A stretch of 41,180 bases of DNA from IMG/VR virus record IMGVR_UViG_3300042691_023582, positions 1 through 41,180 of that record; one strand, given 5' to 3'. This document shows positions 11,907-41,180 of the stretch, piece by piece (within the stretch, counting starts at the first letter, position 1; each line of letters opens with the position of its first letter). The position numbers and the translations under genes were made by a program. Below the pieces are notes generated by a model. The model worked only from the letters and a program-made list of their open reading frames with translations. It searched no databases and was not told the DNA's origin. Origin of the DNA: a virus.

Positions 11907-12059
11907 ATGAGCGAAGACGAGATCGACTGGAAGGCCCGCGCATTGGAAGCAACCGTACGCGCCGACGAGGCGCAGCGGTGTCTGCGCGAGGCGATCGCTA
12001 TCGGCGAGCAGGCGTGTTATCCGATCCCGAGCGACTGGAGAAAGGCGGCATCTCGATGA
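11907..12059 (+). CDS. Small acidic protein
   Basis: 50 residues from ATG 11907, with AGGAGG eight bases upstream deciding the start. The sequence (MSEDEIDWKARALEATVRAD, then EAQRCLREAIAIGEQACYPI) is helical and acidic. No domain was recognised. Its stop overlaps the start of the next tiny membrane gene as ATGA. Confidence 0.6.
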   Translation: MSEDEIDWKARALEATVRADEAQRCLREAIAIGEQACYPIPSDWRKAASR

Positions 12060-12160
12060 TCAACTACCTTTTGGATCTTGCCTGTTGGCTATCCCTATTC
12101 CTAGCATTGCTTGCCCTTGGCTTGGCTGTCTGGATGGCCTGGGCTTGCTTTGGCCCGTAG
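12056..12160 (+). CDS. 34-residue hydrophobic membrane protein
   Basis: ATG 12056 overlaps the previous stop (ATGA). Nearly the whole product is one hydrophobic helix (LLDLACWLSLFLALLALGLA, VWMAWACF). It lies almost entirely antisense to the C-terminal codons of the minus-strand HTH gene, so both strands would be coding here. The clean membrane segment and translational coupling support it. It is the last gene of the second plus-strand island. Confidence 0.5.
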   Translation: MINYLLDLACWLSLFLALLALGLAVWMAWACFGP

Positions 12161-19748: not shown

Positions 19749-22700
19749 CTACTGCGATCTTTCTGAGCGTTGGCCTGGTATTCCGCGAAGCGAATCATTC
19801 AGCCCAGACAATCCAGGCAATCCTCCTGATGACTTGTACGGAAGCAAGTCCTTCCACTTCTTGTCTTTAGCCCTTAGCCTAGCCTTGATTCTGGATGCCT
19901 CGTCGTCGCTCAATGTGTCGATCCAATAAATGACATCGTTTTCGTTGGCGTCGCCGTTGTAAATATCTTTTAGCAGCCGATCCATCTCTACATTGTTTTG
20001 CCTCATCTCAATGGTCTTATCTCTTCGCTCCAAAAACTTCTTATACGTATCCGGATCTTTTGTGCCGATTGGATACGGAGGTAGAACATCAAGAAGCGTT
20101 CTTCTTACTGGCTCTCCGCTAGGGAGCCTGTATGGCTCTACTCTTTCACTTAATCCAGGGATGTCAGCAAAAACGCTATCGACAAATCCTTTGGGATGTG
20201 AAAAATATGGGTTAGTTAGTTGATTTACATATCTCAAAAGACCACTAGCGGGAACTGCTTGAAGCGCAATGAATCCGGAGGATCTGCCAAAACCCCCCTC
20301 GCTGTAATCAATATCACCGGTGGCAACTTTCATCAAATCAGACGCTGCGGTAAGCGGTGTCTGACCAACATAGTATTTTGCTATATTTGATCCTATTTTT
20401 GAAACCCTCTCAAAATAACTCTTGCCTATCATTTCTGGATTATCGACCATCGCATCTCTAACTGCCGCCGGAATTGCAAGAGCTAGCGAAAATCCACCGA
20501 ACATCTGCATTGGAACCCAACGATTACCAATAAGTATTGAATAAGGTTTGTGGCTTTGATACCACACCCTTCGCTCTTCTTCATCTTTGGGCGGAGCCCA
20601 TGTTGTCCTTCCAGTCGCAGCTAAAATTGCAGCAAGCGATGTTATCGTTGTGCCAGCGATAGCCTGACCCAAGCGTTCTTCTTTTATCGACTTGACCTCT
20701 TGTTTGAGATCTTCTGGCAGATCCTCGTATTTCCTTCCATGCCTTGCCCTTGCTATACCATCAAGAGACATCCCGTAGCCAGTCTGTTTTGACCCAGCAA
20801 CAAATGCAAACGGGCTATTATCGAATCCTCGCTCAGCGAACTTAATCGGAGTTCTTACAAACATGGCAACCAGTTTTGCCGGAATTGATATACCTGGGTT
20901 GTTTGCCTTTCTTGCCTTGTCTATGCTACCCCCAATCCAGTCGATAGCTCTGCTAAATTGATTTGCACTCAAATCTGCTGCCGTATCGCCAAGTTTATCT
21001 CGATATAGGTATCTGTCCGCAAGGCTGGTGGCTTGCCTTAATGCGACTTCCGGGTCTAGTCCAGAATCTACAAGCCTGTGGGTTTCGCCAACCCTTATCA
21101 TTGTCGAAAAGAACCTGTCTTGAGCCTCAAGAAATTGAGGTATCAGGCGCAAAGCCTTTGGCAATTTTTTGTTGTATTCCTTGGCAAAAGCGCCCTCAGA
21201 ACTTGTAGTTCCAATATCGTCAAGAGACCTCACGCTGTCTTCGTTTGTAAAAACCTTCTTGAAGTTATCCCACGCCTCTGGAACAGCCTTTGCTGCCTCT
21301 TTAAGATATAATCCAGACCCTTTCAGCTTTCCTTGTCCTAGAAGTGCTGTTGGCCTCACTAATGCAGTCTGAATCGTATTTCCCAATATATTGCGCTGAT
21401 GTGTTCTTGGATTGCTCAATGCGTTCGTATATCGATAAGCATCCCACCAATCGCGCTTCCTCAACTTGATATCCCTCATCGCGTCATCGACTACTGCCTG
21501 TAGAGCTGCTAGTTGCTCCGGCCCCTTCTCGGCCTTTTCTGCCGCGATGAACTTGGCCTTTAGGTCATCCATGCGCTCTTGCGTTATCTTTGCGCCTTTG
21601 CTTTCTGCGAACTTAATAAAGGCTCGAAGATGAAGGTTTCCGCGCCCCTCTGGAGTTCCCATCTGCAATTCGCGCATTGTGCGCAAGATTGTTCCGGCAT
21701 CGGTACCCATTGATGTAAGTTCGTCGAACTCAGCATCTGCCAGTTTGTTTTCCTTGGCCCTCTGGTTAATGTATCCGGCCAACCTTGCCGCGCGCTTGAA
21801 CGGATCTGTTTCAGACTTTATCGACGCAAGTTCTGCTACAGGGTCTGCCTTGGTGGCAGACGCCGCGTCTTCGGCGATTTTCTTTACGGGAGTCACTGGG
21901 GCATACGCAGCCCCGGTCGTCCTAGCCATTGCCGCTTCCTGCTGCAATGTTTCGCTGCTGGCAGCCCTTGTAACCGTCTTGCGCTCGCGCATTCCCTCTG
22001 GAGGCTTTGGCGGCGGCATATCGAGACCCTTCGATATAGACTCGGCGTATGACCTTACCTCGTCATCGCTGGTTAGATTTTTACGGGCTATATCTTTAGA
22101 CCTGTTGTAGATCTGGCGAAGGTATGGCTTGATCTGCCCACCGAACTCTCGGACCATTTCAGACGCCCAGGCTCCGAATTCAGTGGCCCCTTTGGCAAAC
22201 TTAGCCGCTCCGATGATCGAATACTCTACGGCCATTCCGATTGGTTTTTGAGCCCCAAGTGTCCCGCCCTCGCCAAGTTGACGCAGTCGCTCCCTAGCGT
22301 TGTTTTCAACTGAATCGAAGAATGAGATGATCTTCTCCTTCTTCGATATGCGATCAGCAATCTCAGACGTTGTCCCTCTTGTATCAAGCCCCAGCTGCTT
22401 CGCTCGCTCAACGGCCTGAGCCCGGTCCCTCATGTACCGTGGCTCAGCAGCCGGAGCAGGCGCTACTTCTTCCCCTTGTACGCCCCGTCCCACCGGTCCT
22501 GGCGGGACATTCCCGCCTGGCGCAGGGCGATAGCCACCGCCTGCTTCTGGGCGGCCTTCTTGGACTTCGGGCGTGACGATCCGATCTTGCCCTTCTTCTT
22601 GTACCCGCGCACCATCTCCGCGATATTCTCCGACACCACCTTCTGCGACTTGCCTTTCTTTAGCGGCATTGTATGCCTCCTCTATTCTTTTTAGTATCTC

Positions 22701-25700
22701 TTTCGGAGCACCCCCCGTGGGTACACCAAACTGTTCGGCCAACTCGTTGAGACGCTTCTGCTTACCTTGGTAGCTGGCGATGGCGTCGATCTCGGCGCGT
22801 AGGTTGCCGAGGTCGATGTCTTCAAGGCGTTGCGGTTGAGCAGCGGCGGCTTCGGCTCGCCGTTGGTTGAAAAGAGGCGTTTCGCCCTCTCCGAAAATAT
22901 CGGCAGTGGTGTCCAACGGCTTGCCGCGCATAGGCTCGGCCTGCCTTCTTTCTATTTCTGCGCGCTGCTCGGACCTCGCCCGCTCGGATGCGACCTGCTC
23001 TGGAGTCTGGGACTCCAATCGCAATCCCTCGCCGAACGGAGACTCACCCTCGGCTTGCGGAGCCTTCTTCTCAACCTTGCCATAAATCGTAACGCCATCT
23101 TCGACGATCTGGACTCCGTACTTCTCGCCGTCTTCGAGAACAACCGCGTTTGTGTCTGGATCTATTTCAAGAACCTTGAATGATTCGCCACCAATCTTTA
23201 CTTCATCGCCTACATTCAGAGATGATGTATTTACTTGTTCGGCGGTTTTAGGTTTTGATATGGCGTCGCGATTAAATGCCTTGTTCTGTTTTACTACAAG
23301 TTTGTCTTCTTTTTCTGTTTTAGAGATCGTTTCGCGATTCTTTCTATACTGCCGGATTTCTTTTCGTATTTCTTCAAACATTACATCTGGACTTGGAGAG
23401 CTTATTTTCCCTTCTCTCCAAAGAATCGTTGCCATTTCATCAGCAGGAATTTTACCGCCATATACAATCCTGCCAAACCCTCCAAGTTCTGAAACCCTCG
23501 GAGCCGAATCGTATTCTCCACCTTTTGGATTCCTTAGCTGGCTTCTCGGCAATAATCCGCCAGCATCATTAATAGAATCAATAACAGGCGTAAATCCCGT
23601 TTGCTTATACGACGAGAATCCACGAGCCTTCTTCCCTGGCTCTGGTGCTGGCTCCTCTGGGCGTGGCGCCGGGGCGGATGGTTGCTCTGAAGTGGCCTGT
23701 CGAGTGGTCAATCCCTCTGTAGCCATTGTTCTAGTAATTCGCCCGTCAGGCTTTCGCAAGCTGCCGCCGCGAATAGCCTCAAACAGCGCATCCGCATTCC
23801 CTCGCAATATTGGCGTATCAGTCCTGATAATCGAAATTGGCATTCCGCTTGATTCAATGTAAGGGCTGTTTCCGCGATACTTTATATTTTTACTAAACAC
23901 AATAACGGATCGATCACCAAGTTCGCCTGCCCAAGACCAGCGACCCTTTCCGAGAAATGATTCGACCGGATCAACCATTCCGCCTGTCAATCCTTTCTCG
24001 GCTATATTTTGTGTTATTTTATCTAATTCTTCTTCAGTTTGCCCACCTCTTTTTACAACTTGATGTACAGACAAATACGGCGCTATCGCGTCAAATTCTT
24101 CTCGCGTCCAAGTTGATGGATCGCGTTTGGCGATGTCCACCATTCGAGCCATTTCTTTTGTAGTTCCAGTAGAAGGTACTCCTACTTTTTTTGCTTCTGA
24201 TTGAAGATCTTTTCTATTTACTGGAACTTGCGCCGGAGCGGCTGGCTCCTCGGCTACTGCGGGGCGAACAACTGGTTCTGGTTCGACCGGCTTAGTGGCC
24301 GCCACCACAATCTCATCAACCACCTGTTGAGCGGTCTTGCCGTTCGTAGATACACCATAGTAACGCGCATCCTCTTCGATCGCCTGCCGCTTGTTGGTCG
24401 CATCTGCGATCTTCTCTTGCAGCTTTGCGCGAAGATCATCTGCCGAGGCGAACTCGGTAACTGGCCCGGACGGACGGGCGGGCGGGAGAGGCTCTGGCTC
24501 TGGTACAGGTTCGGGGCGGGGAGTTGGTGCTGGCTCAACCGGAGCAGGCTGGCGAGCTGGGGCCGAGGCTCGCTCCTTCATGGCTTGCTCCACCTGTGAG
24601 ATGCTGTCCTCGATGTCCTGGTCGCTAAACCGTTTCGACCTCAAATCAGCAACGATTTCAGACGCCTTGGCATCAGTATAGCCAAGTGCCTTCAATTTCA
24701 GCTTGAACAATTCGTCGGTCGAACCGACCCCTGCGCCTTCAACTGGACGCCCGGTAAAAGGATCCAATACAAGATCACTCGGTTCTTCTGTTGTTTTTGC
24801 TGGCGCGCTTACTGGTTCAGTCCGAACCTTAGCCTCAATATCCTCTGCCCGATCTATTACGCTCGTTGGCGCAACATCATCTGGTGCATCGCGTGATATC
24901 TTCTTCATGGTATCGACGACGAGTTTTGCATCAGGATCTCCGGCCCTGTAGGCGTCGTCGAGCTGCTTGGTTGTCTTACCGGCAAACTTAGAGTATGCCG
25001 ATTTGAATGCCTCGCCGAATCCGGCGAACGCGCCGCCTATAACAGCACCGCTAACCGCGCCACCTGCGGCCTGCGATGTGATCTCTTCAAATGTCGGAAG
25101 CCTTTGCTCTTCGATTCCGGTCTCTATTACTGCACCCACTGCGCCGATTGGCGCTCCGGCAACAGCGCCTCTTACTGCGGTCTTCGCTATCTTTCCGCCG
25201 ACAGTGGCTGCCTTTACGCCCTTTCCAGCCGGGATAAGATTCAGCAATCCGTCCCTTATCGCGCGACCATAAGATATGGTGTCTCGACCCTCTATTTCCT
25301 GAGCGGCCAAGCTACCAGTGAAGCCTCCGGCAAACGACAGGACAGGATATGATATACCCCATGTCGCCGGGGCCAACGCAGCTCCCAATGCTTGTGATGA
25401 AGCTCCGATTGCGACCTCGGCCCCAAGCCCTGCCGCTTGCTGGCCGATTGACGGACCTTCTTCTTTTTCAGGCTGCGAGGGCGGGATTGAAATTCCGCGC
25501 TCGGCAATCCTTCCGTACTGCAATGCCTCCTTGGCCTGCCGCTGCTCGTATGCAGACCGAGCCATTGCGCCAACTTGAGTCTCCACCTCATCAGCGGAAA
25601 ACCCTTGGTCAAATAGCTTTCCGACATCCTTCGCAAAGTCCGGATACTGCGTAGCAAGCTCGGACTGGCGACGCTTGCGCTCGCGCTTATTGGTGATATA

Positions 25701-26171
25701 GAAGACCATATCTTCTGGCTTAACGCCTCGCATTAGAAGATCTTCTATGTCGTCGCTATACTCTGGATACTCTCGTTTTAATTGGTCAGCCAGATCCCTG
25801 GCCTCGCGCGCGAGATCCTCGTCTTTGTACACATTGTATACATCAGCGATCGGCTTCGGCAACGTCGCGTAACGCTGCGATGTTTCACGCGCAGCAATCG
25901 TCGCGTCGACTTGGCGCTGGAGCGCGTCACGCGGAGACGGAGGGGCGATCGGCCCCATGAACTCCGGACTGTATTCCTCGCCGGGGCGGACTGGCCCTAC
26001 GAAGTCGAAGGATGGTTGAGTGGACCCATACCCTGGCCCCATAAGCGATCCGAGAATATCATCAAGAGACGAATCCATCGTTGATCGCGATGGTTGTCCT
26101 GAATAGCCCCCACGGCCAGAAGACGGCGGAAGCAATCCAGATAGTATTTCCTGAAGCTCGTTATCCGTCAC
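19749..26171 (-). CDS. Giant internal-virion / polyvalent protein
   Basis: 2140 residues from GTG 26171 (GTGA overlap). Two short helical repeats lie near residues 125-205. Glycine/alanine-rich, membrane-active-looking helices occur at about 240-385. Four SAP-like units (G-V/L-x-T-x-G-x-(T/A)-x-E pattern) sit near 600, 665, 1150 and 1265. [19 protein letters not shown]...[15 protein letters not shown] module is near 980-1035. A C-terminal region (about 1560-1910) with [16 protein letters not shown] and [15 protein letters not shown] resembles LPD38 of large polyvalent proteins. It is probably ejected with the DNA. Base composition is mosaic. A second gene is nested at 22463-22669. Confidence 0.75.
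22463..22669 (-). CDS. DUF6496-like small protein nested in the giant gene
   Basis: 68 residues from ATG 22669, preceded by a strong AGGAGG six bases upstream. The sequence [20 protein letters not shown], then [20 protein letters not shown], matches the small basic phage/plasmid proteins annotated DUF6496. It is read in a different frame of the same strand as the 2140-aa protein. In that frame the same bases give only a Gly/Pro/Glu-rich linker between the third and fourth SAP-like units. A conserved family plus its own ribosome-binding site makes this a real overprinted gene. Confidence 0.8.
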
Positions 26172-39509: not shown

Positions 39510-41180
39510 AAATATCCTCCTCTTGCGTTGATCCCACAGCCACCCTCTTCACTGCCTTCGTACCATACTCCCCCATATAGCGCATCGGAATCTGCGCGGC
39601 GTAGGAAAGGCAGGAGCCGACCAGGTGGTTGTCCTTGTCCTTCGGCTTCTCCGGCGCGTTGACCGTCGACTTCCCCTCCATCCAGACGTAGTCCTGCCAC
39701 TCGGCGATGAAGTGGCGGAGCGTCTTGAAGAAGAACATACGCGGGCTCCCCTTCCCGCCGGTGATCGGGTTGGTCAGGTCCGGGTTGATCCGCAGCAGCT
39801 CCTTCACCATCGGGATCCGCTGGTCGTCGCGCTTGGCCGAGGCGGGGATGACGTGGATACCGGCGGCGTTGTACAGCCAGCCGATCTCCCTCCCCATCTC
39901 GGTCTGGGCGAACGAGCGGGCGTCCAGCACTGAGCGGAAGAACACGTAGTTCTCCATCCTCTCCTCGAACCGCTGGAGTTCGATCCCGAGTCGCCCATCC
40001 TTGATTGGCCCCTTAGCCACCAGCTCATTCCCGCAGACCTCGACGATCCCGCGAACATTCTCGTAAATCGAACGGTCACGCTGGTAGTATTCAAGGAAGG
40101 CGTAGATGAACCCCTCGCGGTCGACGGCAAAGCACATGCAGGCCGTCGGGTTCTTTGTCCCGTGGTCGAGGGCGCGGTACAGCGTATAGCTGCTGTCGAT
40201 CTTGAACGGCTCGATGAAGTGGATCGCGGGCTCGATCTCGTCGTAGACGAGGCCGCTGGTCTGGTGCCATTCCCCGTAGTAGCGGGACCGCCCCTCGCGC
40301 AGCGTCTTGAGATCGTTGTTGCGCTGGGGCGTCGTCACCCACTTCTCGTACGCCTTCAACTTCATCTCTTTCGAGTAGTACTCTTCCGATGCTTCGTCGA
40401 CGGTGATTGAGTAGGTGGCCGGGTTGTGGCCCTTCGTGTTCTCGCCGCGCTGGAATTTATGCAGCCACGTACCTGCCCCAGTATGTGGGTTACCTTGCAC
40501 CTTGTGGGGCGTGAGGCTGAAGATGTGGCGACCGTTACGACGACGAACGCGCTCGTCTGCGCCGTCAAAATGAGACTCGGGCGGCTGCTCGTCCCAGAGG
40601 AATATATCGCAGCCAAACGATTCAAAAGCCTGTTGGTCTTGGTCATACGCCATGAAGTAGATGGTTGATCCGCACTTGAGTTCGATATGGGGGTCGCGGT
40701 CCCACGGGACGGACTTTGTTTTGCCCCCACGGTCTTTTTTCGTGTACAGCGAAATTTCATTATGAGGCACCCACTTCTTCAGCTCCGGCCAGATCGTCCG
40801 CTTGTGGAGTGCCATCTGGTAGGTGCCGATCGCAGCGCGCTTCGGGCCGCCCCACTCCCGCCATTTGACCCCATGCTTCGTAAAGATCTCCCACGTCGGG
40901 TCGCAGGGCATCAGGTCGAGCAGCAGGTCTATCATCGCGACGCAGGTTTTACCTACACCGTTCGGTGCCTGCATGATCTTCGCGTCGCTCTTCGTGTCGT
41001 TGAGGAACGCGAGCGCGTCGTTGTCGCGCCCCTCCTTCGTGCAGGACGGCACGTAGTACCGCAGGCGGTTGTTCGACAGCTCCTTCTCCAGCGATTCGAC
41101 CATCGACCGCAGCTTCAGGTCGGTACGCAGGCGGTCGTACGGGAACTCGAAGCGTTCCTTGCCGACCCAGAGCTTGTAGA
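39490..41180 (-). CDS. terL: Terminase large subunit (main part)
   Basis: The frame runs off the right end and joins 1-85; the full protein is 568 residues. Numbered from the true start, Walker A is APNGVGKT (about 77-84), Walker B is IFLWDEQP with Asp-Glu at about 202-203, and a C-terminal RuvC/RNase H-like nuclease begins YRALDHGTKNP (Asp about 344), with VLDARSF and DKDNHLVGSCLSYAA downstream. It pumps DNA into the prohead and cuts it. It is the anchor gene of the packaging operon. Confidence 0.93.
   Translation of the reverse strand, partial: YKLWVGKERFEFPYDRLRTDLKLRSMVESLEKELSNNRLRYYVPSCTKEGRDNDALAFLNDTKSDAKIMQAPNGVGKTCVAMIDLLLDLMPCDPTWEIFTKHGVKWREWGGPKRAAIGTYQMALHKRTIWPELKKWVPHNEISLYTKKDRGGKTKSVPWDRDPHIELKCGSTIYFMAYDQDQQAFESFGCDIFLWDEQPPESHFDGADERVRRRNGRHIFSLTPHKVQGNPHTGAGTWLHKFQRGENTKGHNPATYSITVDEASEEYYSKEMKLKAYEKWVTTPQRNNDLKTLREGRSRYYGEWHQTSGLVYDEIEPAIHFIEPFKIDSSYTLYRALDHGTKNPTACMCFAVDREGFIYAFLEYYQRDRSIYENVRGIVEVCGNELVAKGPIKDGRLGIELQRFEERMENYVFFRSVLDARSFAQTEMGREIGWLYNAAGIHVIPASAKRDDQRIPMVKELLRINPDLTNPITGGKGSPRMFFFKTLRHFIAEWQDYVWMEGKSTVNAPEKPKDKDNHLVGSCLSYAAQIPMRYMGEYGTKAVKRVAVGSTQEEDICETTGY
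41112..41180. repeat. Terminal direct repeat, right copy (assembly overlap)
   Basis: Identical to 1-69. Joining the two copies restores an uninterrupted terL start with its ribosome-binding site, which confirms closure of the genome at this point. Confidence 0.95.

Follow-up and report, generated by a model that had tools for sequence, protein, structure and literature searches.

Lambda Rz1, which lies inside Rz, is a nested phage gene. Gene E of phiX174, located inside gene D, is another (PMC8227390). In both pairs, as at the locus described here, the smaller gene is complete and shares its strand, but not its reading frame, with the larger gene around it. Most overlaps are held to arise by the overprinting of a new frame (PMC8227390). 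The polyvalent and large polyvalent proteins of phages, very large proteins encoded among virion genes, are the second system of comparison (PMC5512222). A term search of that paper returned no 'overlap' and no account of out-of-frame genes inside polyvalent proteins. Nothing combining nested genes with polyvalent proteins was found in a literature search thin on subscription journals, and a prior description is possible.

The window, i.e. the whole stretch of viral DNA analyzed (41,180 bp), contains a small gene nested in a giant ORF. The segment is best read as a true two-frame coding region (probability about 0.88): an internal start is predicted to make the small protein, while the linker of the giant protein is read through in the other frame, both being kept.

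The locus and its genome

Terminase, major head protein, tail-fibre and primase genes are recognizable in the window and identify a tailed-phage genome. Positions 1-69 and 41112-41180 are identical, and owing to these 69 bases at both ends the window is probably a complete genome, either circularly closed or terminally repeated. The features of the locus are:

19749..26171, minus strand: giant ORF of 2140 codons, large-polyvalent-protein-like by size and position (ORF list)
22671..22784, minus strand: SAP-like unit just upstream of the nested gene, core at about giant residue 1149 (motif search, by resemblance only)
22676..22681, minus strand: AGGAGG ribosome-binding site of the nested gene, with a 6-nt spacer to the ATG at 22669 (Shine-Dalgarno energy -12.0)
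22464..22670, minus strand: dual-coded linker of the giant protein, from a 12-letter start to VQGEEV, hydrophilic, pI 4.7 (translation)
22463..22669, minus strand: nested gene for a 68-aa basic protein (P0001) of the phrog_2423 family (ATG ORF and profile match)
22344..22403, minus strand: SAP-like unit just downstream, giant residues 1257-1276 (Pfam SAP_new25, sub-threshold)

The small ORF lies wholly within the 2140-codon ORF, on the same strand and in its +1 frame, and covers giant residues 1168-1236. Its coordinates had been given correctly by an earlier sequence-only reading, and the strand, which that reading left unstated, is minus. A stop codon lies in the nested frame a few codons before the start. 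None of the 73 other ATG or GTG codons in the same frame of the giant ORF has a Shine-Dalgarno sequence as strong. Only 2 of the 68 nested codons end in T, versus 24.1% in the rest of the giant ORF (binomial p 1.8e-6). The phage has no second copy of the family, and its sole copy sits inside the giant gene. ORFs of 121 and 94 codons are also present in the +1 frame, so the length of the nested ORF is not significant by itself.

The giant ORF shares strand and block with the genes for the major head protein, the terminase and the tail fibre, and thus encodes a very large phage protein among virion genes. Its product (P0002) contains no LPD or effector domain, as no Pfam or PHROG domain scored above threshold; it is therefore called large-polyvalent-protein-like and not a member of that class. 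The SAP-like units reported on both sides of the nested gene are present, one as the sub-threshold SAP_new25 match and the other, which has no Pfam match, by resemblance. Between them, the proposed low-complexity linker appears as a hydrophilic stretch. No relatives of the central parts of the protein were found in IMG/VR. About 200 N-terminal residues are common to the giant of phage C75C1 (39% identity, E 7e-26), the genome of which lacks the small gene. The resemblance between the window giant and the other giants with a nested gene is confined to the dual-coded stretch, except that some alignments extend weakly into the flanks.

Family assignment of the small protein

P0001 matches the phrog_2423 profile with an E value of 1.4e-9. 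Nested proteins from two other contigs match it as well (L060, E 1.1e-11; L280, E 1.1e-5). The family comprises small phage proteins of unknown function with a ten-letter signature. Its MPLKxGKS start and a C-terminal motif of 12 letters were found (alignments A2, A4, A5), and the first residues and C-terminal motif of the nested protein are identical to those of the family. The first IMG/VR scan with the nested protein yielded 242 relatives with identities of up to about 80%. The protein of the window has a pI of 10.8, and family proteins are strongly basic throughout (pI 10.8-12). Profile match and relatives bear out the claim of a conserved small gene that is nested out of frame behind its own AGGAGG. 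It is this homology, and not ORF length, that identifies the gene as real.

The protein had been described as DUF6496-like. A distant relationship holds through the C-terminal helix (KQAxAIALxxAGKxRKK), which is common to DUF6496 (PF20106) and the family of the nested protein; hhalign gave 96% between the phrog_2423 family profile and a DUF6496 protein over the C-terminal half. Membership does not hold. P0001 and most family members miss the Pfam model, the best nested member (L280) reaches 22.0 bits against a gathering cut-off of 24, and the N-terminal MPLKxGKS part is foreign to DUF6496. P0001 had no match in Pfam, searched at E values up to 1, or in NCBIfam, and belongs to phrog_2423. Literature naming DUF6496 was not found in a search thin on subscription journals.

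Recurrence in other phages

The arrangement is not unique to the window. A family member nested in a giant phage ORF was found in 42 further IMG/VR contigs, all of them metagenomic; the phage collection searched yielded no cultivated phage with a nested copy. In the first scan, two of the 80 relatives kept (L049, L060) were enclosed by very long ORFs, with the phase relation of the window. The others came from searches with the L060 protein, with an alignment of the giant-frame overlap and with giant flanks. The nested ORF is intact and in the giant's +1 phase in all 42 contigs, and nearly all carry a Shine-Dalgarno sequence; it is weak in L271, and L248 was left out of this comparison because its row was in the wrong orientation. 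The family is represented exactly once in each of 21 nested contigs. Bacterial genomes contain free-standing copies only, and no family members were found in plasmids.

The giants with a nested gene fall into at least three groups. That of L060 carries LPD38 (PF18857, E 8.7e-32), a large-polyvalent-protein domain detected only there. A common N-terminal part connects the L086/L171/L181 and L085/L175/L178/L193 groups. The dual-coded cassette has a domain of about 60 residues (AYRQNTxDTL...) upstream in some giants and downstream in others (L060, L049 and L172 versus L177 and L243), and domains have thus been shuffled around it. L243 was rejected as an empty site, since the contig has a nested gene near its other end.

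A long open +1 stretch in a 6.4-kb ORF could resemble a small basic protein by chance, and the 121- and 94-codon ORFs in the same frame demonstrate that such stretches occur. Conservation over the full length of the family (55-80% identity between the nested protein and phage genes), the 42 contigs with the same arrangement, and the strong Shine-Dalgarno sequence together with the codon signature speak against coincidence. Homology and recurrence already refute this explanation, which retains a negligible probability.

Shine-Dalgarno-like sequences are able to stimulate frameshifting. The AGGAGG might accordingly promote a programmed +1 shift, producing a truncated giant that ends in a phrog_2423 domain, and in-frame fusions of this domain to other head proteins do exist. 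Every nested member nevertheless has an ATG or GTG start codon at the corresponding position, spaced from the Shine-Dalgarno sequence as for initiation, and free-standing members start at the matching residue. With the stop just upstream in the nested frame of the window, and no slippery sequence seen by eye, frameshifting is very improbable, and internal initiation is the preferred reading.

Selection on both frames

Substitutions were compared pairwise among 22 distinct overlaps, so that the counts are not independent. Silent changes in the nested frame numbered 1746 versus 868 expected, those in the giant frame 443 versus 881 expected, and giant-frame stops 6 versus 40 expected. Residues are invariant at 28 of 56 positions in the nested frame and at 5 of 57 in the giant frame. 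T-ending codons make up 0.9% of nested codons; their share is 21.7% in the free-standing set and 19-34% in the remaining parts of the same giants. Of the 115 entries in the free-standing set, among them two nested controls, L049 and the window (L082), only 10 have an open giant-equivalent frame; both controls are open. In three giant groups, giant-frame synonymous change (the fraction of conserved residues whose codon differs) was 0.04, 0.00 and 0.05 in the overlap and mostly 0.25-0.55 in the flanks, and within the overlap substitutions move from the third to the first codon position of the giant.

The small gene might be real and the giant frame across it non-coding, as in two separate halves or a pseudogene. 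The poor sequence conservation of this frame would fit. It conflicts with the openness of the frame, which has no stop across the nested gene in any nested contig, and with the flanks, which are homologous on both sides and in one frame also in giants that lack the gene. Furthermore, third-position T has been removed beyond the need to avoid stops: a T-ending synonym is possible at 42 positions in the window and would create a giant-frame stop at only 10 of these, yet T is used at 2. A non-coding giant frame is given a very low probability.

The two-frame coding region remains the favored reading. The proposal that both frames had been kept open is strengthened by the substitution counts, the loss of T-ending codons and the drop in synonymous change, which indicate selection on both. 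This rests on relatives and, in the window, which is one sequence, on codon make-up only. Since T is avoided beyond stop avoidance, the giant frame appears to be kept not merely open but hydrophilic. With the nested protein fixed and GC3 high, the chance of an open frame is about two to ten times higher in the +1 phase than in the other phase for every member tested, which may explain the constant phase of the nested genes.

Under this reading, the giant mRNA would be translated through the segment as a flexible hydrophilic linker. Ribosomes would also initiate internally at the AGGAGG-ATG, yielding a separate 68-aa basic phrog_2423 protein. A pre-existing small gene would have entered a low-complexity linker of the giant ORF in phase +1, the one phase in which the second frame opens once nested codons avoid third-position T. 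The overlap would then have been retained since both products are used.

Origin of the arrangement

Among 52 loci with a homologous downstream giant region, some contain the nested gene, while about 30 with enough upstream sequence do not; the family is absent altogether from most contigs of these 30. L270 was not scored as lacking the gene, as the contig ends before the site. The giants of L280 and L281 are 49% identical over 1897 aa and homologous on both sides of the site, where L280 has the 63-residue dual-coded stretch and L281 an unrelated linker of about 30 residues. The linker is thus absent where the nested gene is absent, as the sequence-only reading had expected for homologous giants. 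The pair demonstrates presence and absence of a unit, and the wider diversity of the free genes suggests insertion as the direction.

In two phages (contigs L264 and L265, loci L306-L309), the giant lacks the nested gene, and a free-standing gene for DUF6496 is present instead. A general replacement of this kind was rejected, as PF20106 occurs in only 2 of 30 contigs whose giants lack the nested gene.

In trees of the short proteins, the gene of the window groups with the free-standing L077, L016 and L091, and 24 other nested members form one clade (support 0.93). The tree favors an independent insertion in the window, but not strongly enough to reject a single nested clade (AU p 0.42, or 0.37 when more rows are included). 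A tree of the giant C-terminal domain rejects one clade of nested giants, with L270 wrongly counted as lacking the gene; gain and loss cannot be told apart there.

Alternatively, loss of its stop could have extended an upstream gene across the small gene, before a fusion to a downstream gene completed the giant. Eight contigs (L114, L126, L138, L146, L158, L143, L125, L115) display what might be the first step: the tail of an upstream gene of about 105 codons overlaps almost all of the small phrog_2423 gene, with the phase relation seen in the giants, the upstream gene terminating close to the end of the small one, and T-ending codons are depleted in this overlap too. No such intermediate is present in the window, and some giants with homology on both sides lack the gene, which implies that the flanks can be joined without it. 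Read-through is regarded as an unlikely origin, though the least unlikely of the alternatives.

Related overlaps were noted elsewhere. In L141, L149, L151, L153 and L155, the small gene is crossed by 86 open codons of the giant-equivalent frame, and few of its first 56 codons end in T; these are possibly further overlaps. Phage MW202796.1 (L081) contains an unannotated family gene of 45 codons at 12013-12150, and an annotated gene (205 aa) terminates within it, again with the same phase relation.

The small gene could also have been born inside giants by overprinting and have escaped later as a free gene. Nested members do occur in several giant groups. Diversity and spread are far greater among free members (phages of Acinetobacter, Caulobacter, Enterobacter and Prochlorococcus; bacterial genomes), and most nested members belong to one subclade, which makes this order of events highly improbable. 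Insertion of a finished gene is favored by this greater diversity and by the homologous giants without the gene. The earlier suggestion of an insertion into the giant ORF therefore stands as to its direction; the event itself is not visible in the lineage of the window, for which no close giant relative was found. Tentatively, giant virion-protein genes may have acquired the small gene on several independent occasions, each time in the only phase that keeps both frames usable. The segment would then be a mobile two-frame cassette, composed of a linker and an autonomous gene; the odds of this are put somewhat below even.

Possible function of the small protein

Free copies, which in many phages belong to the head-morphogenesis cluster, adjoin portal, GroES-like, scaffold and head genes and are often located directly behind the portal gene. 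In Acinetobacter phage AB1 (L311 3001-4374) and relatives, the head maturation protease begins with the phrog_2423 domain, fused in frame. The AB1 protein matches phrog_2423 at residues 1-40 (E 4.3e-16) and phrog_2229 at 59-449 (E 3e-145; DUF2213). This fusion suggests a prohead association, and the small protein could possibly bind nucleic acid or the scaffold, an assignment held with less than even confidence. A structure model predicted three helices (pLDDT 78). It had no match in the PDB, and the structure comparison returned only a weak viral match.

Comparison with known systems

The window giant resembles large polyvalent proteins (PMC5512222) in size and mosaic architecture, and the giant of L060 shares LPD38 with them; the window giant differs from them in lacking any Pfam domain above threshold. 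Apart from the nested set, the phrog_2423 members found either stand free as genes or form in-frame domains, whereas that of the window lies out of frame inside a gene. The family phrog_2423 itself gains interest, being common in phages, of unknown function and now tied to a head maturation protease. Linkers of giant phage proteins may hide further genes missed by annotation. The many phages with the arrangement share a measurable codon signature, the loss of third-position T, and offer a natural data set for measuring two-frame constraint and a testable rule for housing a finished gene inside another. In the usual view of overprinting, a new protein arises in a spare frame; here, a widespread gene would keep its sequence while the disordered linker of the giant adapts. 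In contrast to phiX174 E/D and lambda Rz1/Rz, the nested gene comes from a widespread family, the other frame appears to be an adapted linker, and the arrangement recurs in several groups of giants.
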